Positions 4,357 through 32,503 of a stretch of 33,579 nucleotides of DNA are shown piece by piece; within the stretch, counting starts at the first letter, position 1; every line of letters starts with the position of its first letter. Made by a program: the position numbers and the translations under genes. Source of the stretch: Bacteroidaceae bacterium (GTDB taxonomy: Bacteria; Bacteroidota; Bacteroidia; Bacteroidales; Bacteroidaceae); contig JAFXTC010000063.1 in the NCBI GenBank assembly GCA_017525235.1, positions 1 through 33,579 on the forward strand, written 5' to 3'. The notes beneath the pieces were generated by a model, which was not told where the DNA came from, made no database searches, and worked only from the letters and a program-made list of their open reading frames with translations.

Positions 4357-4361
4357 TATAA

Positions 4362-4425
4362 AGTTTATAGTTTATAGTTTAAAGTTTAAAGTCAGTTTAT
4401 TTAGTTTAGAGTTTACAAGTTGGTA
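4362..4425. repeat. Heptamer repeat array (AGTTTAT family)
   Basis: Units AGTTTAT, AGTTTAT, AGTTTAA, AGTTTAA occupy 4362-4389 in strict 7-nt register. Degenerate continuations (AGTTTAG, AGTTTAC) follow to about 4425. The array starts 5 nt from the M56 start codon and, with the next array, makes up most of the blaI-M56 spacer. Confidence 0.8.
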
Positions 4426-4477
4426 ACTTTCATTGCCACTTCGTTCTCGCGTTTCGCTCGCGACCCCTTCGGCGTTC

Positions 4478-4498
4478 TTCACTCTTCATTCTTCACTA
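4478..4498. repeat. Heptamer repeat (TTCACTC family) overlapping the blaI stop
   Basis: Units TTCACTC, TTCATTC, TTCACTA are in 7-nt register. The stop codon of the blaI-like gene (minus strand, 4486-4488) and its last residues SEE are encoded by the repeat. The same family overlaps the RND permease stop at 26115-26142 and lies inside a coding region at 21601-21621. Confidence 0.8.
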
Positions 4499-4878
4499 TT
4501 AATAAAAGAAAGTATTTCTTTTAATTCTTCATCCGACAGTTTCTCTTCCTTAGCAAAGAAGGAGATGAGCGATTTAACGGAACCTCCGAAGAAGGTTGTC
4601 TTAACCTGGTTCATGAACTTGCGTGTATATTCCACTCTGGTGATAAGGGGATAGAAGTAGAATGTCTTGTCGCGTTCTTCTCCTTTACGGAAAGATACAA
4701 ACTCCTTGTTGGTGAGAATCTTCATAAAGGTTGCAATAGTTGAGTAAGCTGGCTTCGGTTCTGGATACCTTTCTATTATAGCGTGCGTGCTCATCGGCTC
4801 CTTTGCATCCCACAAGGTGTTCATGATTTCCATCTCGGCCTTGGTGAGCGTGTTTATTTCTTTCTTGTTCTTAACCAT
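4486..4878 (-). CDS. BlaI/MecI-family transcriptional repressor
   Basis: A 130-residue winged-helix regulator of the BlaI/MecI (penicillinase repressor) family. The N-terminal domain (residues ~9-80) includes LTKAEMEIMNTLWD, the recognition-helix region PAYSTIATFMKILTNKEFV, and a wing with FYFYPLITRVEY. The C-terminal helices mediate dimerisation and, in family members, carry the site cleaved when the partner M56 protein is activated. It is the first gene of a two-gene unit with the M56-TonB gene. A promoter with a candidate operator lies upstream, suggesting autorepression. The C-terminal SEE and stop are contributed by a short tandem repeat, so the tail is probably variable between strains. 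The regulon beyond this pair is unknown. Confidence 0.94.
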   Translation of the reverse strand: MVKNKKEINTLTKAEMEIMNTLWDAKEPMSTHAIIERYPEPKPAYSTIATFMKILTNKEFVSFRKGEERDKTFYFYPLITRVEYTRKFMNQVKTTFFGGSVKSLISFFAKEEKLSDEELKEILSFINSEE

Positions 4879-9085: not shown

Positions 9086-12000
9086 ATGAAATTCTATATA
9101 AAAAACCTTCTAATGCTATTGTTGCCAACGGGTATGTTGGCGCAAGAAACTACAGACACGACCCTTGTTATCAATGAGGTTCAGGTTGCTAATATTGACC
9201 AGTATTTGGATTATGCAAACTGTTATGGCGGGTGGATTGAATTGTACAACCCTTCGTCGGTAGCTGTTTCACTAAAAGGAATGATTTTGTCAGATGGCGT
9301 AAACGAGATGCGTTTTATGGCTGCCCATGGCAGTGTGCCTGCAAAGGGTTTTAAGACGGTTTGGTTTGATCACAATCAGGCTTCAGGAACATACGGAACT
9401 AACTCAAGAGCGCAGGTCCCTTATAAATTGGAGGTCGAGGGCGGAACCATCAGTTTGTTGACTGCAGAAAAGTCGGTTGTCGCCTCTGTCTCATATCCTC
9501 CGGCAATTCCCCGTTGTTCTTGGGCACGCATTCAAGATGGCGCAGAAAAGTGGGGTACCACGAGCGAACCTACACCAGATGCGACGAATGCGACTAGTCA
9601 TTTTGTTACGGATCGGTTATCGGCTCCAGTAGTAGATACGGATAGCAAGATTTTCACCGATGAATTTCAGGTTCGTGTAAAAATTCCCTCAGGCACTACA
9701 TTGCGATATACTACAGATGGTAGCACACCAACGGCAACTCATGGCGAGACAAGTTCCGACGGACGGTTCACAATCAGTTCGACCACTATCTTGCGCTTGT
9801 GTCTTGTTGGGAAAGGATATTTGTCCAGTCCTGTTGTAACACGTAGTTACATATTCCAGAATCACAACTATTACTTGCCAGTTCTTTCTGTCTCTTCTGA
9901 GCCCAAGAATTTTTTTGATGACAAGGTGGGTATTTTTGTAAAAGGTACCAACGGCGTAAGTGGAAACGGCCAGAGCAGTGCTTGTAATTGGAACATGGAT
10001 TGGGAACGCCCGGTGAATATTGAATATTTGGTTCCTGAGAAGGATAAGAATGGTAATGTCCACTATTCAATGGTGTTAAACCAAGAGATGGATTTGGAAA
10101 TTGCAGGAGGATGGTCACGTGCTTATGGAGGAGGGACTGTGGATGGAAGATATTGGCAGACAAGGAGTTCGTTCCGTATTAAGACCGATAAGAAGTATGA
10201 GGGAGTCAATTCGATAGACTACCCTGTTTTCCCTTTGAAAAAACATAACAAATATCGTTGTTGGCAGGTGCGTAATGGAGGAAATGATACTTATGCGCGC
10301 ACAAAAGATGCCACCATACAGACGATTGTGCTGAAAAGTGGATTCTATGTTGATTGTCAAGACTATCAGCCAGCTCATATTTTCCTGAATGGAGAATATT
10401 ATGGTATGCTCAACATCAGGGAGAGCAATAACAAGCATTTTGCTTATAGTAACTATGGCATCGATTTCGACGATATGGACCAGTTTGATTTGAGCAATTC
10501 TCAGTATAATCAGAAAATGGGTGATAACGAAGCCTGGTTGCGATTGGTGAAGTTGGCATCAACTCTGGCTCAGACAAAGTCGGCAGATACTTATAGGGAA
10601 ATATGCGACCTCTTGGACATGGATGAGTACATTAACTACATGGCCTTGGACTGCTATGTGGGACCGTCAGACTGGATAACCAATACCAATAATGTAAAGG
10701 GGTTCCGTAGTCGTACGGACGGAAAGTTCCATTTTGTGCTCTTTGATGCTGACTCGGCATTCGGATCGGAAAGTATGCTCACCCAAGTGCTGAATACAAG
10801 TGGAGGCGCAAATGTCGACGATTTGTTCCGTTACCTGATGAAGTACGACCCCTTCCGTCGTCAGTTTATGGATGCCTATTGCATTGTGGATGGTAGCGTG
10901 TTTGAACCAACGCGTTGTGAGGAGATTGTCAGGGAGATTGCTCAGAACGTGAATCCGGCATTGGCATTTGAGGGTAGTAGCGCAGGTACTGGTTTGGCAA
11001 GAGATATACGGTCGGCATATAATGGGACGCGTATGAGCACCCTTCGTAACTATTTTGGGTTTAGCTATAACCTCTACGCTACCCTTTCTGCAAATATACC
11101 AGAGGCACGCCTTACCATTAACGGACAAGAAGTGCCAACGCGTAAGTTCGCAGGTTATCTCTTGTCCTACGGAGGTCTTCCCATACAACTTACGGCAAAA
11201 GCTCCCGCAGGATATACCTTTCAAGGATGGCAGTCTGAAGACCTGACAGCATCCACAAAGACATTGATTTCTCTAGGTTCCGACTGGATGTATTTCGATC
11301 AGGGTTCTATGGATGGCTTTGATTGGAAATCTATCACTTTTGCAGAGGAACAAAACGGATGGCGTATGGGTAGTGCCCCCTTTGGCTATGCGAATGAAGG
11401 ATACTTTATGCAAGAAAATGCTGCTACGAAATTGGATTATGGTCCCAATAGCAGCAAGAAGCGTCCAACCTATTATTTCCGCAATACATTCAACTTGACC
11501 ACAATCCCCTCAGACAATGATATCCTTACATTTAATTTCCAGGTAGATGATGGTATGATGTTATATGTGAACGGTCATGAGGTTGGTGGCTACTATATTG
11601 CCAGTGGTTCTAAATATGAGGATTATACCATGAACGGTCATTATGAATCACAAGAACCTTACCAAGGGAGTTTTGTTATTCCGCATGAATATCTGGTGAA
11701 AGGACAAAACCAGATAGCGGTAGAGATAAAGAATACATCAGCATCGAGTACCGATATGTGGTTTGACGGCAGCCTTACCCTATCCGGAAAAGAAGGGGTA
11801 ATAATTGCAGCAGAAGAGTCTATTGATTTACACAAAATCTTTAGCAGTAACAGTAAGGTAGTGCTGCGGGCTTTGTATGAACCTATTTCAGATGAACAGC
11901 AAAGATGGGCAACAGGTGCTTCGCCTTTACGTATCAATGAGGTAAGTGCCGGCAACGACATTTATATTAATGATTATGGAAAGAAATCGGATTGGGTGGA

Positions 12001-13441
12001 AATTTACAACACTTCAGATCAAGATATTAACTTAGAAGGATTCTATTTGAGCGATAACCGCAGCAAACCACAGAAATATCAATTGCAGCAAGGTGTAGTG
12101 CCTGCTCATGGAACTTGTGTTATTTGGTGTGATGGCAAAGATAGCTATAGTCAGTTGCATGCACCGTTCAAATTGGAAAATGCTGATGGTGCCAGTGTCA
12201 GCATTCAGGCAGCCGATGGTTCTTGGGCTGATTGCATAGAGTATCTTGAACAAGGCAAATGGCAAACCTACGGAAGGTATCCTGACGGAGGAAATATGGC
12301 TACTATCCTGAATCAGCCTACCATCAATACAACCAACAAAATAGGGATGATGGATTTCAATGCAGTAACAGAGGACGATTGGCTGGGTAGAGAGAAAACT
12401 ATTACGCTGGCTTTGGCCGAAGGTTGGAACTGGACCTCGCACAATATGGCTCAGAATGTGGATAAAAGCCGATTCACCACAAATGCTCTGTGTCTGCGGG
12501 GGCAGACAGACAGTTTATGGCGCAGCGATGAGGCTGTTTGGCAGGGAAACCTACAGGCGTTGGAGGCTGCTAAGGGTTACAAGATAAAGATGCAGAAAGT
12601 TTCTGACGTTATACTTCGTGGTGCTGTATATGATGTTAGTCAACCCGTTAGCTTGCAGCAGGGATGGAACTGGATAGGTTGTCCGCTCTACAACGCAACG
12701 ACCTTGGAGGCTGCCCTTGCCAACTATCAACCTCAAGACGGTGACAAGGTGGTGGGACTTGATGCATTCGCCACTTATGAGGACGGGCAGTGGCACGGTT
12801 CTCTTAACACGTTGCAGCCAGGTCAGTCGTACCTCTTCTATACCAAACAGGAGCAGGAATTCTGTTGGCAGAGCCTGAGTCCGCTTAAGTCGCGTAACAG
12901 ACATTATGCTCCAACGGAGCAGACGGAGGATGGTGCTTGGGAGACCGATATACATGCCTATCCAGATGTTATGACATTGATTGCTAATGTACAGGGCGAA
13001 GGTCAAGTATCTTTAGATGGCCGCTATTATGTGGGTGCTTTCTGCGGAGATGAATGTAGGGGCGTTGGTGTCTTGGATGGTGATTTACTCTTTATGAATA
13101 TTCATGGTGAGGGACCTGAACGTCTTGTGTTCCGTTTGTTGGATGCTCAGGGCGAGGTTTATGGGGCTGTAAATACCGCCGTATTCCAAGCGCAATCTCA
13201 GTTGGGAACGGTTCAGCAACCTTATCCTTTGATATTTGCGAGCGAAGATGTAATAGATGAGATAAAGCCTGTTATTGCTTCTTCCTCTAAAATACGTGCA
13301 GTCGAGTATTACAATCTTTCCGGACAACGAATGTCTAATGTTCAAGAGTTCAAGGGTTCAATGGCTCAAGGGTTTAATGGCATTGTTCTTCGTAAGGTAA
13401 TCTATGAGGATGGAAGCGTGAAGGTTTCTAAATTTCAATAA
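9086..13441 (+). CDS. Giant secreted lamin-tail/CotH mosaic protein
   Basis: A 1451-residue secreted protein with a signal peptide (MKFYIKNLLMLLLPTGMLAQ). Visible order: lamin-tail domain ~25-135 (LVINEVQVAN, GGWIELYNPS, LKGMILSDG); chitobiase/hexosaminidase C-terminal-like domain ~190-255 (LRYTTDGSTPT); CotH kinase-like region ~265-600 (HIFLNGEYYGMLNIRE, then FHFVLFDADSAFG, the metal-site-type acidic motif); a lectin-like insert ~760-860 (FQVDDGMMLYVNGHEVGG); a second lamin-tail domain ~940-1050 (LRINEVSAGN, SDWVEIYNTS, LEGFYLSDN); two GWNW repeats ~1110-1200; and a sorting-like tail (YYNLSGQRMS). CotH of Bacillus is a spore-coat protein kinase; activity here is only inferred. Five octamer repeats have expanded inside the tail. 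Its 3' end overlaps the convergent phosphoesterase gene by 14 nt. Confidence 0.87.
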   Translation: MKFYIKNLLMLLLPTGMLAQETTDTTLVINEVQVANIDQYLDYANCYGGWIELYNPSSVAVSLKGMILSDGVNEMRFMAAHGSVPAKGFKTVWFDHNQASGTYGTNSRAQVPYKLEVEGGTISLLTAEKSVVASVSYPPAIPRCSWARIQDGAEKWGTTSEPTPDATNATSHFVTDRLSAPVVDTDSKIFTDEFQVRVKIPSGTTLRYTTDGSTPTATHGETSSDGRFTISSTTILRLCLVGKGYLSSPVVTRSYIFQNHNYYLPVLSVSSEPKNFFDDKVGIFVKGTNGVSGNGQSSACNWNMDWERPVNIEYLVPEKDKNGNVHYSMVLNQEMDLEIAGGWSRAYGGGTVDGRYWQTRSSFRIKTDKKYEGVNSIDYPVFPLKKHNKYRCWQVRNGGNDTYARTKDATIQTIVLKSGFYVDCQDYQPAHIFLNGEYYGMLNIRESNNKHFAYSNYGIDFDDMDQFDLSNSQYNQKMGDNEAWLRLVKLASTLAQTKSADTYREICDLLDMDEYINYMALDCYVGPSDWITNTNNVKGFRSRTDGKFHFVLFDADSAFGSESMLTQVLNTSGGANVDDLFRYLMKYDPFRRQFMDAYCIVDGSVFEPTRCEEIVREIAQNVNPALAFEGSSAGTGLARDIRSAYNGTRMSTLRNYFGFSYNLYATLSANIPEARLTINGQEVPTRKFAGYLLSYGGLPIQLTAKAPAGYTFQGWQSEDLTASTKTLISLGSDWMYFDQGSMDGFDWKSITFAEEQNGWRMGSAPFGYANEGYFMQENAATKLDYGPNSSKKRPTYYFRNTFNLTTIPSDNDILTFNFQVDDGMMLYVNGHEVGGYYIASGSKYEDYTMNGHYESQEPYQGSFVIPHEYLVKGQNQIAVEIKNTSASSTDMWFDGSLTLSGKEGVIIAAEESIDLHKIFSSNSKVVLRALYEPISDEQQRWATGASPLRINEVSAGNDIYINDYGKKSDWVEIYNTSDQDINLEGFYLSDNRSKPQKYQLQQGVVPAHGTCVIWCDGKDSYSQLHAPFKLENADGASVSIQAADGSWADCIEYLEQGKWQTYGRYPDGGNMATILNQPTINTTNKIGMMDFNAVTEDDWLGREKTITLALAEGWNWTSHNMAQNVDKSRFTTNALCLRGQTDSLWRSDEAVWQGNLQALEAAKGYKIKMQKVSDVILRGAVYDVSQPVSLQQGWNWIGCPLYNATTLEAALANYQPQDGDKVVGLDAFATYEDGQWHGSLNTLQPGQSYLFYTKQEQEFCWQSLSPLKSRNRHYAPTEQTEDGAWETDIHAYPDVMTLIANVQGEGQVSLDGRYYVGAFCGDECRGVGVLDGDLLFMNIHGEGPERLVFRLLDAQGEVYGAVNTAVFQAQSQLGTVQQPYPLIFASEDVIDEIKPVIASSSKIRAVEYYNLSGQRMSNVQEFKGSMAQGFNGIVLRKVIYEDGSVKVSKFQ
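13340..13379 (+). repeat. In-frame octamer array in the CotH protein tail
   Basis: Five 8-nt units, GTTCAAGA, GTTCAAGG, GTTCAATG, GCTCAAGG, GTTTAATG, encode VQEFKGSMAQGFN. They lie exactly between the GQRMS and GIVLRK segments of the sorting-like tail. The same octamer occurs in the EEP gene at 21525-21556. Confidence 0.85.
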
Positions 13442-20729: not shown

Positions 20730-21671
20730 ATGAAATACACAAAATGGTTTTTTCTTTGCTGTCTGATTTCTTGTTTGACGGCTTATGCGCAGGACGATGT
20801 GATGACGCTGCGTATGATGACCTACAACATTCAGCATGGGGCGGGATCCGATGGTGTGATAGATCTTAATCGTCAGGCAGCGATTATTGGTGATGCTACG
20901 CCCGATGTGGTAGGACTGCAGGAAGTGGACAGTTGCGTAAAACGTTCCAGCTATGTACACCAGGCCGCTATTCTGGCAAAGTCACTTGGAATGTACAGCA
21001 CGTTTGGTCCTGCCATTCCACTTACTGGAGGAAAGTATGGAGTGGCAATCCTCAGCAAGGAAAAACCTTTATCCCATCATAATATACCTTTGCCCGGAAA
21101 TGAAAAAAGAACCCTGTTGGTATGCGAGTTCGAAGAGTATGTTTTTGCCTGTACACATCTTGCTCTTGAAGAGGAGAATCGTTTAACCTCGTTAGACATT
21201 ATCTTGGAGGAAGCTGCTCAGTGGGATAAGCCTTTCTTTATCTGTGGTGACTGGAATGATGAACCATCTTCTACGTTCATAACTAAAATGAAGAAGAAGT
21301 TTTCCATTCTGAATAATACTTCAAGTAGCAGTGCCAACTTTACGTTTCCAGCTGGTACCCCCAAGAAAATTATAGACTATATAGCCAGCTATGGACGTGT
21401 TTATAAATCTGTACGTAAACGTCAAGTTCTTAATGAACCGGAGGCTTCAGACCATCGTCCTGTTCTGGTTGAAATAAGAATGGATCGTTATACAACCCCC
21501 ATATTCTCTCTTACGGAAGATAATGTTCAAGGGTTCAAAAGTTCAGGGGTTCAATCAGACGCAGTCTACGATATGGGTGGAAGAAAAGTTAATTCCTCGC
21601 TCTTCACTGTTCACTCTTCACTCAAGAAGGGACTCTACATTGTGAATGGTAAGATAATTCAGGTGAGGTAA
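20730..21671 (+). CDS. Secreted endonuclease/exonuclease/phosphatase-fold enzyme with sorting tail
   Basis: A 313-residue protein with a signal peptide (residues 1-20, ending AYAQ). The EEP catalytic domain covers ~25-250: MTYNIQHG, VGLQEVD (catalytic Glu), GGKYGVAILSK, CTHLALEE, CGDWNDEP and the terminal EASDHRPVLV (Asp-His pair). EEP enzymes cleave phosphodiesters in DNA, sphingomyelin or phosphoinositides; the substrate is not readable. Adjacency to the MINPP-like phosphatase hints at phosphate or phosphoinositide scavenging. After the domain come four in-frame octamer repeats, then a sorting-like tail (YDMGGRKV...GLYIVNGKI) interrupted by heptamer repeats encoding SSLFTVHSSL. The 3' end overlaps the convergent SpoIIE gene by 13 nt. 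Confidence 0.88.
   Translation: MKYTKWFFLCCLISCLTAYAQDDVMTLRMMTYNIQHGAGSDGVIDLNRQAAIIGDATPDVVGLQEVDSCVKRSSYVHQAAILAKSLGMYSTFGPAIPLTGGKYGVAILSKEKPLSHHNIPLPGNEKRTLLVCEFEEYVFACTHLALEEENRLTSLDIILEEAAQWDKPFFICGDWNDEPSSTFITKMKKKFSILNNTSSSSANFTFPAGTPKKIIDYIASYGRVYKSVRKRQVLNEPEASDHRPVLVEIRMDRYTTPIFSLTEDNVQGFKSSGVQSDAVYDMGGRKVNSSLFTVHSSLKKGLYIVNGKIIQVR
21525..21556 (+). repeat. In-frame octamer array in the EEP gene
   Basis: GTTCAAGG, GTTCAAAA, GTTCAGGG, GTTCAATC encode VQGFKSSGVQS between the catalytic domain and the tail. It is the same unit as the array in the CotH protein tail at 13340-13379. Confidence 0.85.
21594..21621 (+). repeat. In-frame heptamer array in the EEP sorting tail
   Basis: TCCTCGC, TCTTCAC, TGTTCAC, TCTTCAC occupy a 7-nt register and encode SSLFTVHSSL. 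The insert lies between GGRKV and KKGLYIV, the same tail position as the octamers in the CotH protein. Confidence 0.85.
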
Positions 21672-23425
21672 GAGAAGAACTTGCATTTGATAGCAAGCAT
21701 CGTGAGGTCATCGTTCTGTTCAGCATTGCCTACAAATTGGCATAAAGCTTCTTTTTGAAGTTTAATAATAGTTTCCGGATCGAATGATTTGTCTGCAAGT
21801 GCCTTACGTGCAATTCTTAGTATCCGTTGTTTGCCAAATTGTGTGTGGGCATAATTCTCTGCCTCTGAGAGTCCATCGGTATATAGGAAGATGGTAGTCT
21901 CTGGGTATATCTGTGTTTCTTGACCCTCATAGTTCCATTTAGAGATCATCCCGACAGGAATGTTATTGTTAGAAGGAAGCAACCCTACACCTTTGCCAAT
22001 GAGTAATGGCTCTTCGTGGCCGGCATTGCAATAGCGCAATCGTCCTGTTGCCAATTCGAGCACACCAACAAATAGTGTTACAAACATGTCTGAATCATTC
22101 ATGTCGGCTATAGACTCGTTCAATGCTGTAACGATGGTTTCCGGTAGATCTTCATGAGCCGAGACGGTGCGGAAAAGGCTACGTGTGACAGCCATTACCA
22201 GCGAAGCAGGTACACCTTTACCAGAAACATCGCCTATGCAAAAGAAGAGTTTTTCGTCGCGTATGTGAAAATCGTAGAGGTCACCTCCTACCTCCTTGGC
22301 TGGTACAAGTGATGCAAAGATGTCCACATCCTTTCGATCAGGATAGGGGGGAAAGGTCTTAGGCAACATACTTTCCTGAATGCTCCGGGCTATGCGTAAT
22401 TCACTGCCTATACGTTCTTTTTCAGCTGTAGCCTCCCGTAGTGAACGTGCACTCCGAGCGGTGCGGTAAACAATATAACAGAGCAATGCCAGACCAGCCA
22501 ATCCAAGTAGTAATATGTATGTGGCAGATTTTCGCAGACTAGAATATATATCTTTGTCATTACAAACAACAGCCATTGACCATCCCGTTTCACCGTCTAT
22601 CGGGGCATAGAATACACACTTCTTTTGACCGTCGATGCCCACAATATTTTTATGACCGCTTTTCCCGTTCAACATCTGCTTGTTTATAAACTGGATCGTG
22701 GTATCGGCAGCAGAGGAGGTGATTTCCTGAATAGTGTTGCGCATAATAAAACGACTGTCAGGACCTACTAAGACTTTACCTGTGCGTGAGATGACAATAT
22801 TAAAACTCTGTGGATAGATGTTATTTGTATTTATTACGTCAGAAAGCCAGTCGAGCGAAACGTCGGCTCCTAACAAACCTACGATCTTTCCCCTTCCGTC
22901 ATGCACAGGTATGGTATATGTGCACAGCATCATACGTGCTCCTGCCTCGTCGAAATATGGCTCACTCCATCTTCCCTTTCCTGCTTTAATGCCGTTCTGG
23001 TAGAATTCCATCTCCAGGTAGTTGTGATGGGCACTTCCTATCTGCTCCTGTTCTATAATACCAAAGGAACGTCGTGCTACATATGGTTCATACCAATGCC
23101 CTTTTTGCGGATAGTAATCGGGCTCAAACATCAATCCCACACCCACGACGGTTGGGTTCTGTTCCAGCATCCTGCGAATATCTGTGTAAAGCGAATCGGG
23201 CCATTTTAATCTACGTTCTATCGTCCAGAGAGTGTTGGCCATAGCGGTCTCAACGGTAATCATTACGTTTCTGACCTCTAAGTTTTTTACCTGTAATTCG
23301 CTCTTTGCCCTGCTCTCCACCTCACCACGTATACCTTTTTGGGCAAACATGAATTGAACAGCAAAGATAAGTTCCAGTAGTGCTGCTACGGTTATAATGA
23401 TGGCAACACTATATTTTGATTTCAT
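21659..23425 (-). CDS. Cache-sensor SpoIIE-type PP2C phosphatase
   Basis: A 588-residue membrane sensor phosphatase. TM1 is near residues 5-26. An extracytoplasmic double-Cache-like region spans ~30-295 (VGVGLMFEPDYYP, GLLGADVSLDWLSDVI, NIVISRTGKVLV). TM2 is near 300-322, then a coiled linker (SLREATAEKERIGSELRIARSIQESMLP) leads to the SpoIIE/PP2C domain at ~365-585 with metal motifs EVGGDLYDF, GDVSGKGVPASLVM, YCNAGHEEP and LYTDGLSEAEN. Such phosphatases dephosphorylate STAS-domain proteins. ATG 23425 gives a 4-nt ATGA overlap with the upstream STAS-kinase stop; a TTG at 23434 is the alternative. The coupling makes that STAS domain the obvious substrate. The ligand is unknown. Confidence 0.93.
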   Translation of the reverse strand: MKSKYSVAIIITVAALLELIFAVQFMFAQKGIRGEVESRAKSELQVKNLEVRNVMITVETAMANTLWTIERRLKWPDSLYTDIRRMLEQNPTVVGVGLMFEPDYYPQKGHWYEPYVARRSFGIIEQEQIGSAHHNYLEMEFYQNGIKAGKGRWSEPYFDEAGARMMLCTYTIPVHDGRGKIVGLLGADVSLDWLSDVINTNNIYPQSFNIVISRTGKVLVGPDSRFIMRNTIQEITSSAADTTIQFINKQMLNGKSGHKNIVGIDGQKKCVFYAPIDGETGWSMAVVCNDKDIYSSLRKSATYILLLGLAGLALLCYIVYRTARSARSLREATAEKERIGSELRIARSIQESMLPKTFPPYPDRKDVDIFASLVPAKEVGGDLYDFHIRDEKLFFCIGDVSGKGVPASLVMAVTRSLFRTVSAHEDLPETIVTALNESIADMNDSDMFVTLFVGVLELATGRLRYCNAGHEEPLLIGKGVGLLPSNNNIPVGMISKWNYEGQETQIYPETTIFLYTDGLSEAENYAHTQFGKQRILRIARKALADKSFDPETIIKLQKEALCQFVGNAEQNDDLTMLAIKCKFFSYLT

Positions 23426-24636
23426 AATGTCCAATCTTTGAACGTCTTACATACGTCTTTGATATAATCATAGCGCTGAGTTACGTACCCGTCAAACAGC
23501 TCTTGGCACTCCTTAATTACCGACTCGGGGAAAGAGTCCGATAGCGATAGCCAACTGAACTTCCTGACACATGATGCTACCATAATTTGTTCTTTTCGTT
23601 GTGCAGCCACGTTGGCTGGCAGATCTGCCATATAGTAATCCATTGCCTTGTCCCAAAGGCGCTGCCCCATTTCGCGCGGCATACCGATTGTCTTCTCGTA
23701 GTCTCCTACAAAACCTACCATAGCCGAGTATGCATGAGCCAAATCAAGCATCGGATGTCCATAGCCCACCTCACCCATGTCTATGAGCATCAACTCATCG
23801 TCCTGCACCATTACATTCTTTGTCTGCAGATCCATGTGAAGCAGGCGATTCCCAGTCGGGATGCTGTCTACAATATTGAGCAGCATTTCAATACTCTCGT
23901 TTGGGAAATAACGGCGAATATGCTCAATCTGCTGTCGTTCACGCTTTATGACTGCAGGAACATTTCCTTCTTCTGGAACCTCAATCTGATGCATTTGCAG
24001 GAAAAGGTCGGCATATTTTTTTGCGAAGACATCCAATTGTTCGGGATGTTTCTTAACGTAAGTGCTCAGCGTCTGAGCCTTCAGTAGTTCATAAACCAGA
24101 CCGTAACATTCTGTTCCGCCTTCTTTATTCGGTGTCACTTTAACCACGTCGAATGAAATGGCTGTGGGCATTCCCAATACAAAAGCTTCTTTTGATAGGG
24201 TAATCTCCCGACGCACCTCATCCATGGTTGTTCCCTCGCGAAATACTTTTATAATTGTATCGCCGTCCAACCTGTATACTTTTCCAACACCGCCAATGCC
24301 TATGAGTCTGCAACCGTTCACACTTAACTTGCGCATTGCGCGTTCTACAATCATAATTTTGGTGAACCCCGTTGTTTCCAGAACTTCATATACTTGTGAC
24401 TGTACATTAATCACCTTGAACATTTTGTAACGTTTTGCCAGAGAAAGCAGAATACGTAAACCAGAACTTGATATATATTCTAGTCGCGATGCATCGCATA
24501 TTAGCAATTCTATCGTTTCAATATTATCTAGTTCGCAATTAATCTTTGTATTAGCCTCTGGCGATGTAGCCGTATCTAAACGTCCTGCAAAGGTGATCGT
24601 CACTTCATTGCCGTTGGTCTGAATAGTCGTGGTCAT
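23422..24636 (-). CDS. STAS domain fused to an APH-fold kinase
   Basis: A 404-residue cytoplasmic fusion. Residues 1-100 are a STAS (anti-sigma-factor-antagonist) domain: VTITFAGRLDTATS and the phospho-site loop LEYISSSGLRILL, where S57 aligns with Ser58 of SpoIIAA. Residues ~105-400 are an aminoglycoside/choline-kinase-fold domain: Gly-rich loop GIGGVGKVYRL (113-123), putative ATP lysine K130 (TIIKVF), catalytic HMDLQTKN (H267, D269, N274) and metal-binding LIDMGEVGYG (D286). This resembles the APH-like paralogous family first noted in Fibrobacter (TIGR02172, recalled and not checked). All kinase residues are intact. It overlaps the SpoIIE phosphatase gene and follows the RND pump genes with a 21-nt gap. 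Inference: kinase and phosphatase set the phosphorylation state of S57. Confidence 0.9.
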   Translation of the reverse strand: MTTTIQTNGNEVTITFAGRLDTATSPEANTKINCELDNIETIELLICDASRLEYISSSGLRILLSLAKRYKMFKVINVQSQVYEVLETTGFTKIMIVERAMRKLSVNGCRLIGIGGVGKVYRLDGDTIIKVFREGTTMDEVRREITLSKEAFVLGMPTAISFDVVKVTPNKEGGTECYGLVYELLKAQTLSTYVKKHPEQLDVFAKKYADLFLQMHQIEVPEEGNVPAVIKRERQQIEHIRRYFPNESIEMLLNIVDSIPTGNRLLHMDLQTKNVMVQDDELMLIDMGEVGYGHPMLDLAHAYSAMVGFVGDYEKTIGMPREMGQRLWDKAMDYYMADLPANVAAQRKEQIMVASCVRKFSWLSLSDSFPESVIKECQELFDGYVTQRYDYIKDVCKTFKDWTL

Positions 24637-24657: not shown

Positions 24658-26064
24658 TTACTTCGTTCCACCACCTAAGGCGATGTAGAGGGCTATCACA
24701 GCCTTGGCCCCGTTGTAAAGGTTAGAAGCCTCATCGAGTTGGGCAGAAAGGAGCGACTCCTGAGCGGTGAGCACCTCCAGATAGTTGGCTTTGCCGTTAT
24801 CCATCAGTTCGTGGGTGCCTCGGTAAGCTTCGTGGAGCACATCCACCTCACGACTGTAATAGTTATGCTTCTCACGGGCAGCTAAGCAGTCGGCAATAGC
24901 CTCGTTCACCTCGTTTCCAGCTTCGATGACGGTCTGCACGTACTGCTTCTTCAGATCCTCCTCATAAAGCTTGGATGTCTTCAGGTTAGCCTTCAGTTTG
25001 CCTCGAGTGAAGAGGGGCTGAGTGAGCTGACCCACGAAGTTGAGCAGTAATCCGCCTGGATTAACTATCGCCCCACCACCGCTGTTGGTCCAGCCTAACG
25101 TTCCAGCCAGGGTGATACTGGGGAAGAAGGCGGCGCGTGCCGTCTGGGTATTGTAGAATGCCTCCTCCATAGCGTAGTTGACCATGCGAATGTCGGGGCG
25201 ATTCTCCAGCATCTGAGCAGGAACGCCCAGTTTCAGGTAGTTGGTATCGAACATACGCTGTCCTTCGGTGGCAGAATGGTACTTGTCGGCAGCGCCCCAG
25301 TGAGCACGCGCTATGTGTTGAGGTGCTACAGCGAGCATCTTGCAGATGGCGTTCTCAGTGGCACGGATGCTGCGGCGCGTGTCCACAATCTGGGTCCTGA
25401 CGTTGAAATATGAGGCCTCCAGTTGATTAACAGCTGTGCTGTAAGCCTTACCATTTTCATAAAGACTCTTCTCGGTCTCTAAGGATGCCTTCCAAAGGCT
25501 GTCGGTCTGCATAAGAATGTCCAACTGACGGTCCAACAACTGAAGCAAGAAATACTGCTGGGCTACGGTACTGATAAGGTTGGAACGAACGGATTCCTCG
25601 TAGCACTGTGACTGGAGGAGCACGGCCTTGGCTGCACGTTTCTTATTGGTAAGGCTACCGAATGCATCAACGTCCATCGAAAGCTGGAGGGGAAGTTCGT
25701 AGCTTTTCGTCCAAGGATTGTTGTCGAATTTACTGAGGGCTCCCTGAGGCGACAGGCTGAGCATAGGCAGATAAGCCATCTTAGCCGTCTTTAATGATGC
25801 CTCACTCATCTCCACGGTGATGCGGGCTGAATTCAGATCGGTATTATTAGCCAGCACTTGTTCGATGAGTTGCTGTAGCAATGGATCGGAGAAAAACTCG
25901 CGCCATGATAATTTGGCTAGCGACTCACCGCCCATTGGGACTTCTGTCACTTCACCAAAGGCGTTGGCAGGTGCCTCCACTTCCTGCTTGTATTTCTTGA
26001 ATAGACCGCAACTCGTGAGCATCAGACTTGCGGCTACGATAGCGAATATACTTTTATAGTTCAT
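24658..26064 (-). CDS. RND efflux outer-membrane factor (OprM/NodT type)
   Basis: A 468-residue outer-membrane lipoprotein channel. The signal peptide ends in lipobox LTSC (residues 16-19), so the N-terminus is lipid-anchored as in OprM. Two OEP (TolC-like) repeats are visible, with family stretches WREFFSDPLLQQLIEQVLANNTDL, RPDIRMVNYAMEEAFYNTQTARAAFFPSITLAGTLG and NGKANYLEVLTAQESLLSAQLDEASNLYNGAKAVIALYIALGGG. The trimer forms the exit duct of the tripartite pump encoded by the two upstream genes. The length is normal. The gap to the permease gene (58 nt) contains heptamer repeats. Confidence 0.95.
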   Translation of the reverse strand: MNYKSIFAIVAASLMLTSCGLFKKYKQEVEAPANAFGEVTEVPMGGESLAKLSWREFFSDPLLQQLIEQVLANNTDLNSARITVEMSEASLKTAKMAYLPMLSLSPQGALSKFDNNPWTKSYELPLQLSMDVDAFGSLTNKKRAAKAVLLQSQCYEESVRSNLISTVAQQYFLLQLLDRQLDILMQTDSLWKASLETEKSLYENGKAYSTAVNQLEASYFNVRTQIVDTRRSIRATENAICKMLAVAPQHIARAHWGAADKYHSATEGQRMFDTNYLKLGVPAQMLENRPDIRMVNYAMEEAFYNTQTARAAFFPSITLAGTLGWTNSGGGAIVNPGGLLLNFVGQLTQPLFTRGKLKANLKTSKLYEEDLKKQYVQTVIEAGNEVNEAIADCLAAREKHNYYSREVDVLHEAYRGTHELMDNGKANYLEVLTAQESLLSAQLDEASNLYNGAKAVIALYIALGGGTK

Positions 26065-26114
26065 AATTCACATATTTATATTTAGCTGCGCATAGCGATA
26101 GCGGCAGCAAATTC

Positions 26115-26142
26115 TTCACTTTTCACTCTTCACTCTTCACTT
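26115..26142. repeat. Heptamer repeat (TTCACTC family) overlapping the permease stop
   Basis: TTCACTT, TTCACTC, TTCACTC, TTCACTT are in exact 7-nt register. On the minus strand they encode the last permease residues (VKSEE) and its TGA stop (26125-26123). Confidence 0.85.
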
Positions 26143-29100
26143 CTTTTCCCTGGAACCTTTCGTGCAGTTTCTGGAACACGATGAAGAAGGCTGGTACTAC
26201 GAAGAGCAGGGCAATCGTACCCACACTCATGCCGCCTACAACACCCATTGCGAGTGCACGGTTACCATTAGCACCTGCACCACCTTCTATAATAAGAGGT
26301 ATCATACCGGCAATCATGGTAACAACCGTCATCAGAATGGGGCGCAAGCGTTCCTTGCAAGCCTCAAATGCTGCATCTACGATGCTGAGGCCTTGGGCAC
26401 GGCGTTCACTCGCGAACTCGGTAATCAGGATGGCAGTTTTGGCCAACAGACCAATAAGCATGATGACACCAGTTTGAAGATAGATGTTGTTATCCGAGCC
26501 GGGCAGGCTGAACTTTGAGCAGACGTAAGCCATGATGAAGGCACCCATCAGTCCAAAGGGCACACTCAGAAGCACGGCCATAGGCGTAAACCATGAATTG
26601 TAAAGCGACGCGAGAATCAGATAAATCAGTATGACGCAGATGCCGTAGATTAACGAGGTCGTGTTGGAGTTAGCTGACTCCTCCACCTCGCGTGACATGT
26701 CGCTGTACTCATAGGTGGCTGTGGCGGGCATTTCCTGACGGAATACCTCTTCAATAGCCTTGTGAGCTTGGCCCTCGCTGTAGCCGCCAGCCGTGGTGAT
26801 ACTGGTGGTAATACTCTGGAAGAGGTTAAAGTGCTGTATGTTCGACGGGCCGACAATCTCTTTCAGCGAGACAAACTCGGAGAGAGGTGCCATCTTGCCA
26901 CCCTTTACCTTGACAAAGATGTTTTGCAGCGATGATGGGTCGAGTCTGCTCTCTGGCGTGCCGGCTGACATGATACGGTATACCTTACCAAACTGGTTGA
27001 AGTTGCCGATGTAGCTTCCGCTGCAGTAGTTGCCAAGGGTGCTGAGCACCGTCCTGGCCGATACACCAGCGCGGTCACATTGTGCAGCATCCACATCAAC
27101 TTTGTATTTGGGGAATCGCTCAGAGTATGTAGAGACGGCCGAGGCTATCTCAGGACGCTCTGTTAGCTTGGCCAGGAACTTGTCTGTTCGCTCAGCAAAC
27201 TCCGTCAGATTGCCATCCGTAGGGTCTTGAACGATGAGGCTCACGGCGTTACTTGTACCGTAACCGGGGATCTGCGGCATCTGGAATGGTATCACCCTCG
27301 CATTCTTGATGCTCAGGCAGTCCATATAGAAGCGGTACATGACCATATCGATGCTGTGGTTCATACCTGGGCGTTCATCCCAGTTCTTCAGACGCACAGC
27401 GAGGAAACCGTAGCTCGAACCATAACCGGAAATCAGACCATAGCCACTCGATATAGCATAGTTCTCCAACTCGGGTATGTTCTTCACCTTCTCCTCCACC
27501 TGTTTCATCAGTTCGTCGGTCTGCTGCAGAGTGTAGCCCTCCGGTGCCTGTATCTCACCCAAGAATACGCCCTGATCCTCCTGTGGAACAAGGCCCGATG
27601 GCAGGTTCTTCATAAAGAACATCAGCAGGAAGACAGCGACAGCCAGCAAGCCCCACGACAAAATGGGTCGCTTAATGAACTTCTGAACAGCCTTCGTGTA
27701 TTTCGCTAAGATGGCGTTGTAGCTTGCGTCGTAAGCTTTCTTCGTGTAGTAGGTCAGCGACTTGCTTTGCTTTCCTTCCTCCATCTTCAGCATGATGGCA
27801 CATAGGGCGGGGCAGAGCGTCAAGGCCGATACACAGGACAGGCCGACACTGGAGGCTATCGTCACACCAAATTGTGTGAAGAACGTTCCCGATGTGCCGC
27901 CCATAAAGGTCACCGGGATGAACACGGCCATGAAGACCAGGGTACACGATACGACAGCTACCGACACATCGTTCATGGCCTCACGGGTAGCTTGACGCGG
28001 GTCGCTTACACCATTCTCCATCTTCGCCATTACAGCCTCCACAACCACGATGGCATCATCCACCACCGTACCGATGGCCAGCACCAGGGCGAAGAGCGTA
28101 AGGATATTTAATGAGAAGCCTGAAATAGACACGACGGCAAAGGTGCCCATCAGCGACACGACAATAGAGATAGACGGGATAATCGTTGCCTTGAAGTTCT
28201 GCAGGAAGAAGAATACCACCAAAATCACCAAGATGATGGCGATAATCAGTGTCTCCACCACGTTGTGGATAGCAGCAAAGAGGAAGTCGTCTGAGGTCTG
28301 CATCGTAGAGATTTCTATGCCTGCAGGCATGTTCTGCTTCACTTCCTCACACATTTGAGTGATGCGAGCGTTGACCTCTGTAGCATTCGCACCAGGTGCC
28401 TGGAATATCAGCATCATGGCACCAGGCTTTCCCTTGACTTTCGAAATGAAGCTGTAGCTTTGGGCACCAATCTCCACATCGGCCACCTCGCCTAAACGCA
28501 GCAGATGGCCGCCGTCGGTAGTTTTCAGCACGATATCCTTGTACTCATCGACCTCTTTCAGCGTACCCTTGTACTCCATGGTGTACTTGTACTTGTTATT
28601 CGACTGATCGCCGAAACTACCTACAGCGGTAACGAAACTCTGGCTGTTGATGGCATTTGTCACGTCATCAGGTTCCAGACCATACTGCGCCATCACGTCG
28701 GGCTTCATCCACACACGCAGAGCGTAGGTATTACCTAATGACATCACGTCGCCCACTCCGTTTATACGTTGTACACGGGGTTTGAGGTTGATATCCACGT
28801 AGTTAGAGATGAAGTCGTCGCTATACTTGCCGTCTGTGCTGCTGATAGCGAGGATACGCAGAATGTTGTTCTGTCGTTTCTGTACCTCGATGCCCACCTT
28901 GATTACGTCAGAGGGCAGCTGCGATTCGGCTTTCGATATGCGGTTCTGCACGTTCACCGTTGCCATGTCAGGGTCGGTACCCTGCTTGAAGTACACGTCG
29001 ATGGACACGTTACCTGTCGATGTCGCCTTCGAACTTATATACGTCATGTTGTCTACACCGTTGATACTCTCTTCCAACGGTTGGATAACGGACTTCATGA

Positions 29101-29272
29101 TTGTGGAAGGGTCGGCTCCCGTGTAGGAGGTTGTTACACACACCTGTGGTGGTGCTATATTCGGGTATTGCTCTATGGACAGCGAATTCATGCAGATGAA
29201 GCCACCCAGTACAATCACAATACTGATGGCACACGCCATCACGTATTTATTGATGAATATGTTATTCTTCAT
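26123..29272 (-). CDS. RND multidrug efflux permease (HAE1, AcrB/MexB type)
   Basis: A 1049-residue inner-membrane proton-driven pump with the full HAE1 architecture: TM1 (VMACAISIVIVLGGF), porter domain starting IEQYPNIAPPQVCVTTSYTG, TM4 with the proton-relay Asp pair (GTVVDDAIVVVEA), the large loop (MGGTSGTFFTQFGVTIASSV), a second porter half (LPSGLVPQEDQGVFLGEIQAP) and TM10 with the conserved Lys (LIGLLAKTAILITEFA). ATG 29272 (MKNNIFINKY) is preferred over the TTG at 29281, which lies in a repeat. Substrates cannot be read. The start codon abuts a heptamer array that is the entire spacer to the adaptor gene. The C-terminal SEE comes from another repeat. Confidence 0.97.
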   Translation of the reverse strand: MKNNIFINKYVMACAISIVIVLGGFICMNSLSIEQYPNIAPPQVCVTTSYTGADPSTIMKSVIQPLEESINGVDNMTYISSKATSTGNVSIDVYFKQGTDPDMATVNVQNRISKAESQLPSDVIKVGIEVQKRQNNILRILAISSTDGKYSDDFISNYVDINLKPRVQRINGVGDVMSLGNTYALRVWMKPDVMAQYGLEPDDVTNAINSQSFVTAVGSFGDQSNNKYKYTMEYKGTLKEVDEYKDIVLKTTDGGHLLRLGEVADVEIGAQSYSFISKVKGKPGAMMLIFQAPGANATEVNARITQMCEEVKQNMPAGIEISTMQTSDDFLFAAIHNVVETLIIAIILVILVVFFFLQNFKATIIPSISIVVSLMGTFAVVSISGFSLNILTLFALVLAIGTVVDDAIVVVEAVMAKMENGVSDPRQATREAMNDVSVAVVSCTLVFMAVFIPVTFMGGTSGTFFTQFGVTIASSVGLSCVSALTLCPALCAIMLKMEEGKQSKSLTYYTKKAYDASYNAILAKYTKAVQKFIKRPILSWGLLAVAVFLLMFFMKNLPSGLVPQEDQGVFLGEIQAPEGYTLQQTDELMKQVEEKVKNIPELENYAISSGYGLISGYGSSYGFLAVRLKNWDERPGMNHSIDMVMYRFYMDCLSIKNARVIPFQMPQIPGYGTSNAVSLIVQDPTDGNLTEFAERTDKFLAKLTERPEIASAVSTYSERFPKYKVDVDAAQCDRAGVSARTVLSTLGNYCSGSYIGNFNQFGKVYRIMSAGTPESRLDPSSLQNIFVKVKGGKMAPLSEFVSLKEIVGPSNIQHFNLFQSITTSITTAGGYSEGQAHKAIEEVFRQEMPATATYEYSDMSREVEESANSNTTSLIYGICVILIYLILASLYNSWFTPMAVLLSVPFGLMGAFIMAYVCSKFSLPGSDNNIYLQTGVIMLIGLLAKTAILITEFASERRAQGLSIVDAAFEACKERLRPILMTVVTMIAGMIPLIIEGGAGANGNRALAMGVVGGMSVGTIALLFVVPAFFIVFQKLHERFQGKEVKSEE

Positions 29273-29307
29273 AATTGTCAATTATCAATTATCAATTGTC
29301 AATTATT
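29273..29307. repeat. Heptamer array forming the adaptor-permease spacer
   Basis: AATTGTC, AATTATC, AATTATC, AATTGTC, AATTATT in strict register. The array begins at the base next to the permease ATG and contains the adaptor stop codon (29305-29303), so the intercistronic region is nothing but repeat. It is the same family and gene-sense orientation as 672-706. Confidence 0.9.
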
Positions 29308-30424
29308 TTGCCGGCTTAGCCGGGAAAAGCACCTTCTGTCCTTCGTGTACGTTGTTGGCTCCCACGGTTACAATCTTGTCGCCGACATTCAGACCGCTGG
29401 TGACAATAAAGTCCTTACCGTTCGAGATGTCCTGTGTCGTCACCGTTACAGCCATTACTGTGCTGTCGGGCTGTACCTTATACACTTGCTGCTTGTCCTG
29501 CAACTTCACTACAGCTACCTGTGGAATCACCATCACGTTCTTTTCGTCGTACGGCATCACCACAGTACCCTGTATGCCCGAGTAGAGCAATCCGTCGGGG
29601 TTCGGGAACGTTGCCTTGCAGGCGATGGTACCAGTGGTAGCATTTACCATTCCAGTGATGCTGGTAATGCGGCCCTTGTGCTGATATTCGGTACCGTTCT
29701 TCATGATGAATATTACATCGGGTAATCGTTTCAGTGCATCATCCTTCTTGGTGCTGACACCTTCGGCAATGGCATCTTCAATAAGAGACTCCGACACCGA
29801 GAACTCAGCGTTCATCATCGTGTTGCCGCTAACGGTAGTCAAATACGAAGAGGGGGAAACCTGATCGCCTGTGCGAACGGGAATTTCGCCTATCATACCG
29901 GCAACGGGCGCCGTAATGGTACAGAAACCAAGGTTCACTTTGGCACGGTTCATCGATGCACGGGCCTGTGTAACCGAGGCCTTTGCCTGCTTGTACGAGT
30001 TTTCCGAGTCATCCAGCATATATTTGCTCACAATCTTTTTCTCGTACAGGTTTTTGTTCGACTCGTACTCCAATTTTGCGCTGTTCTCCGAGGCCAAAGC
30101 AGCCTGGAGGTTAGCTTCTGCAGCCTCCAAGTCTAACTGAGCGTTGCGCGAGTCAATCATGAACAGCGTCTGTCCCTTTGTTACTTGCTGACCCTCGGTC
30201 ACGCAAATCCTTGTTAACTGTCCGCTCACCTGTGGCGTAATAGTCACATCTGTCAGTCCTTTCAGTTTTGCACTGAACTTAATGGGCATCGTGATGTCCT
30301 GTTTCTCAACCGTTATCGTCTCATACGATGTCAGTTCTTCCTTGGGCATATCAATCCCACATGAGATAAGAGTTGCCGCAGTACCAAGCAGCATTGTCCA
30401 TGTCGTTAAATGATTTTGTTTCAT
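29303..30424 (-). CDS. RND efflux periplasmic adaptor (membrane-fusion protein)
   Basis: A 373-residue lipoprotein adaptor. ATG 30424 is chosen because AGAAGGA lies 4-5 nt upstream, a rare clear Shine-Dalgarno site, and because a lipoprotein signal follows (lipobox LISC, Cys ~22). A TTG at 30439 is the alternative. Family features in order: barrel-sandwich half (VSGQLTRICVTEGQQVTKGQTLFMID), alpha-hairpin coiled coil (~95-160, LEAAEANLQAALASENSAKLEYESNKNLYEKK is its first helix region, given by position), second half (ITAPVAGMIGEIPVRTGDQVSP), then beta-barrel and membrane-proximal domains. It links the permease and outer-membrane factor. It is the promoter-proximal gene of the five-gene minus-strand run. 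Confidence 0.95.
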   Translation of the reverse strand: MKQNHLTTWTMLLGTAATLISCGIDMPKEELTSYETITVEKQDITMPIKFSAKLKGLTDVTITPQVSGQLTRICVTEGQQVTKGQTLFMIDSRNAQLDLEAAEANLQAALASENSAKLEYESNKNLYEKKIVSKYMLDDSENSYKQAKASVTQARASMNRAKVNLGFCTITAPVAGMIGEIPVRTGDQVSPSSYLTTVSGNTMMNAEFSVSESLIEDAIAEGVSTKKDDALKRLPDVIFIMKNGTEYQHKGRITSITGMVNATTGTIACKATFPNPDGLLYSGIQGTVVMPYDEKNVMVIPQVAVVKLQDKQQVYKVQPDSTVMAVTVTTQDISNGKDFIVTSGLNVGDKIVTVGANNVHEGQKVLFPAKPAK

Positions 30425-30480
30425 GGTTCCTTCTGTCAATTATCTTATTTTTTTATTATATGGTATTTTTTTTACTACTG

Positions 30481-31513: not shown

Positions 31514-32503
31514 ATGGAAGAAGAAAAGATTATTATATATCAGACGGAGGACGGACAAACGCAGATTGATGTCCGCCTGGAGAACGAGACGGTGTGGTTG
31601 ACGCAAGCTCAGATGGCTAAGTTGTTTGAAACTGACAGGACCTCAATAGTTCGTCACATCAACAATATCTATCGAGTTGACGAATTAGACAGAGTGGCAA
31701 CCTGTGCAAAAATTGCACAAGTTCAAACCGAAGGAAAAAGACAGGTAACCCGTACTGTCCCATATTTCAATTTGGATATGATTATTTCAGTAGGGTATCG
31801 TGTCAATTCTAAGCGTGGCGTAAAATTCCGTCAATGGGCTAATCGGGTGTTGAAGGACTACCTCGTGAAAGGCTATGCCGTAAACGAGCGAATTAGAAAG
31901 GAGCAGATTGGCGAGTTGCGTCAACTGGTGGGAATGTTGGGGCGCACAATACAAAGCCAGCCTCTGCTGTCAAACGACGAGACGAATGCCCTCTTCGAAG
32001 TGGTGACGAATTATACCTACGCTCTGGATACCCTCGACAACTATGATTACGAGCGACTGACTATCGACAAGACGACAAAGGAAGAGCCCTTCCACGCTAC
32101 ATACGAGAATGCAATGGAAGCTATCAATGGCTTGCGCGAGAAATTCGGTGGTTTATCACTCTTTGGTAATGAAAAAGATGACTCCTTTAAGAGCAGCATC
32201 GGACAGATTTATCAGACCTTCGGAGGTGAAGAACTCTATCCCAGTGTGGAGGAGAAGGCTGCCATGTTGCTTTATCTGGTGACTAAGAACCATTCTTTTA
32301 GCGACGGCAACAAACGTATTGCCGCCACACTCTTCTTGTGGTTCCTCAATAACAACGGCATCCTCTATCGTCCAGATGGCTCGAAGCGCATAGCAGACAA
32401 CACCCTCGTGGCCCTTACCCTGATGATTGCTGAGAGCAAGACAGAAGAGAAGGACGTGATGGTAAAAGTTGTTGTGAATCTGATTAACCAGAGGAACGAG
32501 TGA
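31514..32503 (+). CDS. RhuM-Fic family protein (virulence RhuM/Fic/DOC)
   Basis: A 329-residue two-domain protein. Residues ~5-125 are a RhuM domain (IDVRLENETVWLTQAQMAKLF, a winged-helix-like start, and VGYRVNSKRGVKFRQWAN). Residues ~195-325 are a Fic domain with an intact catalytic motif HSFSDGNKR (260-268; catalytic H260), which in active Fic proteins transfers AMP or another moiety to target proteins. No canonical inhibitory S/T-x-x-x-E-G/N motif is obvious. RhuM proteins were first noted on a Salmonella pathogenicity island and have no settled function. Fic/Doc proteins often act as toxins, and no antitoxin-like small gene is seen beside it. The flanking exonuclease and duplication relics mark this as an accessory locus. 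Confidence 0.9.
   Translation: MEEEKIIIYQTEDGQTQIDVRLENETVWLTQAQMAKLFETDRTSIVRHINNIYRVDELDRVATCAKIAQVQTEGKRQVTRTVPYFNLDMIISVGYRVNSKRGVKFRQWANRVLKDYLVKGYAVNERIRKEQIGELRQLVGMLGRTIQSQPLLSNDETNALFEVVTNYTYALDTLDNYDYERLTIDKTTKEEPFHATYENAMEAINGLREKFGGLSLFGNEKDDSFKSSIGQIYQTFGGEELYPSVEEKAAMLLYLVTKNHSFSDGNKRIAATLFLWFLNNNGILYRPDGSKRIADNTLVALTLMIAESKTEEKDVMVKVVVNLINQRNE

Follow-up and report, generated by a model that had tools for sequence, protein, structure and literature searches.

A conserved STAS-APH kinase fusion beside a Cache-SpoIIE phosphatase in Bacteroidales, most likely a partner-switching module with a kinase output

The locus and the fusion protein

The window, which is the whole 33,579-nucleotide stretch of contig JAFXTC010000063.1 analyzed here, comes from a rumen gut bacterium of the family Bacteroidaceae. 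On its minus strand, positions 23422 to 24636 encode a 404-residue protein, called STAS-APH below, in which a STAS domain is followed by an APH-fold kinase domain (Table 1). Residues 5 to 97 match Pfam STAS (PF01740) with 38.3 bits against a cut-off of 22.6, and residues 120 to 305 match Pfam APH (PF01636) with 47.3 bits against a cut-off of 23.2, which confirms the domain fusion described in the first-pass annotation. The match to choline kinase (PF01633) is 21.2 bits, under the cut-off of 29. The kinase domain has its best NCBIfam match (residues 111 to 335, 100.7 bits) in the APH-like proteins of TIGR02172. Unlike members of that family, however, the fusion is far under the 228.2-bit cut-off, and in a quick, midpoint-rooted tree 18 of 20 STAS-APH kinase domains form a clade of their own (SH-aLRT 99).

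Table 1. Coordinates of the fusion protein and its neighbors in the window
Feature	Position	Strand	Details
STAS domain (SpoIIAA-like), fusion aa 1-100	24337..24636	-	S57 codon 24466-24468
APH-fold kinase domain, aa 101-404 and stop	23422..24336	-	K130 24247-24249, D269 23830-23832, D286 23779-23781
Cache-SpoIIE phosphatase, 588 aa from ATG 23425	21659..23425	-	PF22673, PF02743 (Cache), PF07228 (SpoIIE)
RND efflux genes (periplasmic adaptor, pump, outer-membrane channel), upstream of fusion	24658..30439	-	Context only

S57 lies inside the motif YISSSGL. This residue and K130, H267, D269, N274, and D286 are all found where they had been placed at first reading, and the catalytic residues are intact; the five APH residues are assigned the roles that they have in APH kinases. 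S57 presumably corresponds to SpoIIAA S58, a match made by residue numbering and supported by a structure search, in which the STAS model aligns to SpoIIAA. S57, K130, E144, H267, D269, N274, and D286 are identical in 81 of 81 sequences, which are the window's protein and the best 80 of 205 loci (a count that includes the incomplete L072 and L100, both from one isolate). Since the two-domain architecture recurs in relatives, chance is no sensible explanation of the fusion. The AF2 model of the protein (pLDDT 93.1, pTM 0.80) has a short inter-domain link, with strands at residues 96 to 99 and 102 to 105. The best structural matches listed for the APH domain are small-molecule kinases, many of them aminoglycoside or macrolide kinases, and E. 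coli YihE is also in Foldseek's top rows.

The neighboring phosphatase has its SpoIIE domain (PF07228, 155.8 bits) at 21683 to 22258 and its Cache region at about 22565 to 23179. It carries the acidic motifs GGDLYD, GDVSGKG, YTDGL, and NDDLTML, which are presumably catalytic, as in PPM phosphatases. The ORF caller puts the start of this gene at TTG 23434 instead of ATG 23425. The latter sits inside TTATGAAATC, which gives the 4-base ATGA overlap with the fusion gene that had been reported for the pair. Elsewhere, the window encodes a BlaI-like repressor and an M56 peptidase protein with a TonB C-terminal domain at its end (2860 to 4878), a 1451-aa protein with CotH kinase and lamin-tail domains (9086 to 13441), and a RhuM-Fic domain protein (31514 to 32503).

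Occurrence of STAS-APH proteins and of GHKL kinases

Among 301 genomes sampled from the family, 24 have STAS-APH, and in two of these the identity is 23 to 29%. Order-wide, 9 of 295 genomes match, with both domains covered in 2 (G944 and G000, which is the window's genome and is 72.7% complete). Phylum-wide, 2 of 395 genomes match, namely the window's own and one with a hit on the STAS part only. A profile search of 389 genomes detects more fusions, plus many stand-alone APH relatives. The loci compared below are the best 80 of 205 STAS-APH loci, which come mostly from Bacteroidales MAGs and from genomes of Prevotella or Xylanibacter, with many of rumen origin and one from Kiritimatiellae.

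In the classical RsbUVW and SpoIIA switches, a GHKL kinase phosphorylates the STAS Ser and a SpoIIE/RsbU phosphatase reverses this. The window's locus resembles the Bacillus systems (RsbU/RsbV/RsbW and SpoIIE/SpoIIAA/SpoIIAB) in its STAS domain with the conserved Ser and its sensor-bearing SpoIIE-class phosphatase, and in the existence of a GHKL kinase, which is found here in the operons of relatives and in the window's genome. It differs from them in that STAS is joined to an APH kinase, in that no sigma factor is found in the 19 window ORFs scanned, and in that the GHKL gene is off-locus. The first-pass annotation had stated that neither a GHKL kinase nor a sigma factor is encoded here. This is correct for the window: a custom GHKL HMM, which was used for the window and the loci and was built on nine seeds without the C48 GHKL described next, has no match in the window's ORFs of at least 60 aa, and both GHKL ATPases and sigma factors are absent among the 19 ORFs scanned against Pfam. 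The genome, however, has two GHKL kinases that match PF13581 above cut-off. One (G000:C48:65330-65704) forms part of a Cache-SpoIIE protein whose gene is near a lone STAS, and the other (G000:C12:26082-26438) is a free gene near SpoIIE and STAS. In the C12 stretch (L055:6071-12970), GHKL, STAS, and SpoIIE lie amid an alpha-amylase gene and a phosphofructokinase gene, together with a 720-aa frame that by eye resembles a glycogen-debranching enzyme.

Neighborhoods were counted in those 65 of 80 loci that extend 2.5 kb or more to either side of STAS-APH, and a GHKL gene or domain was called close if it lay on the same strand no more than 2.5 kb away. By this measure, GHKL is close to STAS-APH in 25 of these 65 loci (7 free and 18 fused to Cache-SpoIIE). 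SpoIIE is near in 35 of the 65. SpoIIE lacks a close GHKL in 12 of the 65, as it does in the window, and 28 have neither. At L034:5815-6177, a 23S rRNA-intervening-sequence-protein gene (PF05635) lies between STAS-APH and SpoIIE.

At the level of whole genomes, which were searched with alignment A2 (full C48 domain included), GHKL is found in 23 of 24 STAS-APH genomes versus 83 of the other 277 among the 301 genomes sampled from the family. The Fisher p value of 1.2e-10 is only a guide, since these genomes are not independent of one another, a good number are incomplete, and the searches are unequal in sensitivity. Fifty-one loci have no GHKL in the fetched stretch; 28 of them were traced to genomes, and GHKL is found elsewhere in 27 of the 28. 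The lone exception in both counts is G187 (81% complete; the record behind L074), which has STAS-APH and no detected GHKL.

In a quick tree (no bootstrap), the window falls in a five-row clade (SH-aLRT 95) with L057, L058, L062, and L117. L057 has GHKL, STAS-APH, and SpoIIE in a row, and the same three-gene row is found in L056, which is next to the window clade (support 86). Because L057 has this row while its clade mates L058, L062, and L117 have no adjoining GHKL, the GHKL neighbor of the window's fusion was probably lost or moved. The C48 GHKL of the window's genome groups weakly with the GHKLs adjacent to STAS-APH genes (SH-aLRT 83).

Roles of S57 and of the APH domain

The Ser and the APH catalytic base do not always occur together. 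In L049, L051, and L251 the Ser is kept and position 269 is K, N, and N, respectively; position 274 is C in L049 and L251, and position 286 is G in L251, a 469-aa STAS-APH protein with losses like those of L049. L049 and L051 are inside the main STAS-APH clade (L251 is outside the tree sample). L049 adjoins SpoIIE and GHKL genes, and its STAS-APH protein (L049:5623-7056) ends in an AraC-like region, by NCBIfam matches that are under cut-offs. SpoIIE and GHKL are absent from the fetched stretches of L051 and L251. Conversely, the APH residues are intact but position 57 is Phe in L052, L053, and L252. These three give a weak comparison for the main clade, since L052 and L053 lie outside it and represent a second, separate type of STAS-APH fusion (L252 is outside the tree sample). 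Small as this sample is, the retention of Ser where D269 is replaced, together with intact APH domains that have Phe57, speaks against a kinase-substrate relationship between the APH domain and S57.

What we observed is the domain make-up, the conserved residues, the gene overlap, the recurrent GHKL/SpoIIE neighborhood, and the co-occurrence. The fusion is real and conserved, and it most likely belongs to a partner switch whose output is a kinase, rather than to one that does without GHKL. The reading that we favor, with a probability of roughly two in three, is a partner-switching module that has an APH-fold kinase as its output instead of a sigma factor, in which GHKL and SpoIIE proteins act on S57 and STAS gates APH. 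A GHKL kinase of the RsbW/SpoIIAB type, whose gene adjoins the fusion in some relatives and lies at other loci in the window's genome, would phosphorylate S57 in trans. The Cache-SpoIIE phosphatase would take this phosphate off once its Cache domain senses a ligand, and the phosphorylation or GHKL-binding state of STAS would switch the attached APH kinase, which may act on a small molecule and perhaps, more speculatively, on a nucleotide. We infer all three parts (phosphorylation of S57 by GHKL, its reversal by SpoIIE, and gating of APH by STAS) from protein anatomy and gene context. The neighboring position of the phosphatase gene fits with phosphatase-STAS docking as described in PMC11418112.

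We favor this mechanism because GHKL is near the fusion in 25 of 65 loci and present in 23 of 24 genomes and 27 of 28 traced ones, because L057 has the complete three-gene row, and because the APH residues are intact in 81 of 81 sequences and Ser is kept in L049, L051, and L251. Against it are the window and the 12 loci in which SpoIIE has no close GHKL, the 28 loci with neither, the weak grouping of the C48 GHKL, genome G187 with no detected GHKL, and L051 and L251 with neither SpoIIE nor GHKL in the fetched stretch.

One alternative, which we consider unlikely, is that STAS is an ordinary antagonist that titrates GHKL off another target and that APH is an independent or structural passenger. 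The three loci in which the catalytic base is replaced and the STAS Ser kept are consistent with this, as is the AraC-like end of L049, where APH may be a non-catalytic relay. However, a passenger has no need of catalytic residues that are invariant in 81 of 81 sequences, and related APH kinases are also found encoded on their own next to modules of this kind.

The first-pass annotation offered two alternatives, that the APH domain is the STAS Ser kinase in cis or that the STAS state gates a kinase acting on another substrate. In the first, the APH domain would be the kinase for S57, either in cis or from one subunit to another, and SpoIIE would reverse this, which would be a partner switch that needs no GHKL. 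The intact S57 and APH sites of all 81 close homologs, the short link between the domains, the window and the 12 loci among the 65 that have SpoIIE without close GHKL, and the one STAS-APH genome without detected GHKL (G187) are each compatible with such a kinase, and there may be a parallel in the Hanks-type kinase PknD, which reportedly phosphorylates an anti-anti-sigma homolog. Nevertheless, we regard it as quite improbable. GHKL is beside or fused in 25 of 65 loci, and 23 of 24 STAS-APH genomes and 27 of 28 traced ones contain it. A conserved GHKL partner, named beforehand as evidence against phosphorylation in cis, is thus present in the form of genes, whose products may act on S57. In addition, L049, L051, and L251 retain S57 with D269 replaced, which weighs more than the intact APH with Phe57 of L052, L053, and L252, two of which are of the separate type, and the best listed structural matches are small-molecule kinases, though YihE is in the top rows. 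The second alternative, a STAS-gated kinase with another substrate, is, judged by anatomy and gene context, the better fit.

Very improbable, too, is a resistance-type role in which APH cooperates with the RND efflux genes upstream, and we rejected an efflux link. In its favor, the fusion starts 21 bp after the stop codon of the efflux channel gene on the same strand, and the fold matches include many kinases of aminoglycosides or macrolides. However, in a comparison of the window with 35 of the 80 relatives (three genes either side), only the window has efflux genes next to the fusion, the nearest exception being a 185-aa channel-like ORF three genes upstream at L068.

The favored partner switch with a kinase output has precedents. 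CapS is a STAS domain fused to a DNA-binding domain and is phosphorylated by the GHKL protein CapK (PMC13373217). It is like STAS-APH in that STAS is fused to its output, and CapK acts at the equivalent Ser; it is unlike STAS-APH in that its output is a winged-helix DNA-binding domain, and the available part of that paper mentions no SpoIIE gene. STAS or STAS-like proteins also control the diguanylate cyclases BgrR, HsbD, and SiaD (PMC8457831). In SiaABCD, HsbA/HsbD, and BgrV/BgrR, the phosphorylation state of the STAS or STAS-like protein controls an enzyme rather than a sigma factor, but the enzyme is a diguanylate cyclase and is a separate protein.

Stand-alone APH kinases and a lead toward alarmone signaling

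We fetched 20 regions with stand-alone APH kinases, of which 17 were picked for APH near GHKL or STAS and the other 3 were tandem APH hits (L218 and L220) and a GHKL-STAS pair (L221). Fourteen of the 20 (L203 to L208, L210 to L214, L216, L217, and L219) hold GHKL, a lone STAS, a RelA/SpoT-type synthetase, an HD hydrolase, and APH in one stretch. These labels are by sequence match, with Pfam run on the synthetase, hydrolase, and APH proteins of L206 and L213 and on two L219 proteins; the families in the proteins scanned are PF04607, PF13328, and PF01636. In these five-part cassettes GHKL comes with SpoIIE (SpoIIE/GHKL) and the APH kinases are TIGR02172-like, and two of the loci (L213 and L217) belong to the window's own genus. 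L203, L204, L207, and L208 have an opposite-strand gene between STAS and the synthetase and are therefore not single operons. L216 begins at a contig end, so that of SpoIIE/GHKL only the GHKL part is visible. In L219, SpoIIE and GHKL are encoded separately, and hydrolase and APH form one protein. Several cassettes also have an NMT1-like binding protein and a Na/H exchanger (Pfam-checked in L206).

A fusion of an HD_4 domain (SpoT-like hydrolase) to APH adjoins a RelA_SpoT-type gene at L139:1444-2853 and L219:6755-8179, and L220 has a similar HD_4-APH ORF by sequence match. All three order-level APH hits inspected (L139, L141, and L142) have a RelA_SpoT-type gene and an HD_4-type domain, with the RelA_SpoT match under cut-off in L139 and the HD_4-type domain fused to APH in L139 and recognized by reading in L142. 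Among 20 further stand-alone APH loci taken in order of score, skipping those already fetched, one (L238) has SpoIIE-GHKL and an HD hydrolase nearby, 8 have a Y_phosphatase3-like gene near APH (L233, L235, L238, L239, L241, L242, L248, and L250), and 12 have neither. The five-part cassette is one context among several for this kinase family. A Y_phosphatase3-like gene is also near some STAS-APH genes (L044 to L047, L254, and L255).

Near STAS-APH genes, the synthetase query matches in 3 of the best 80 of 205 loci (L060, L084, and L133). In P. communis, GHKL, STAS, and the synthetase are together, about 395 kb from the STAS-APH gene. The query for the small RelA/SpoT-type synthetase matched G233 and G281 and had no match in G152, G082, or the 72.7%-complete genome of the window, where the hydrolase query matches only within a 766-aa frame that we read as a long Rel protein. 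There are two PADLOC matches (PDC-S33, 54.9 and 52.7 bits) among the synthetase proteins. The cassette APHs fall in the other half of the APH tree from the STAS-APH clade, and we rejected a simple Rosetta-stone reading, in which the cassette APH would be the direct sister of the fused APH, because the tree separates them. As judged from the tree, what links fused and cassette APHs is that one kinase superfamily associates with one type of module, rather than direct descent.

These arrangements hint at a partner switch that may feed alarmone-linked signaling, which is a lead for the module type and not a result for the window's protein. In its broader form, the idea is that partner switching in Bacteroidales (Cache-SpoIIE, GHKL, and STAS) controls an alarmone-linked kinase circuit, either in the STAS-APH form or in a split form, in which STAS, RelA/SpoT-type synthetase, HD hydrolase, and APH kinase each have a gene of their own. 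APH would then add phosphate to a nucleotide or similar second messenger, steered by an extracellular ligand. We offer this as a tentative proposal, with about one chance in three of being right.

To our knowledge, the targets of partner switching in Bacteroidales are little worked out, and in our searches of the open-licence PMC literature we found no report of a STAS-kinase fusion or of a link between partner switching and alarmones. In STAS-APH, STAS is covalently attached to a kinase of the small-molecule type, beside its likely phosphatase, so that the output can be assayed directly. Should the connection with the RelA/SpoT-type cassettes prove true, an extracellular sensor would be tied to alarmone-type signaling via a partner switch.
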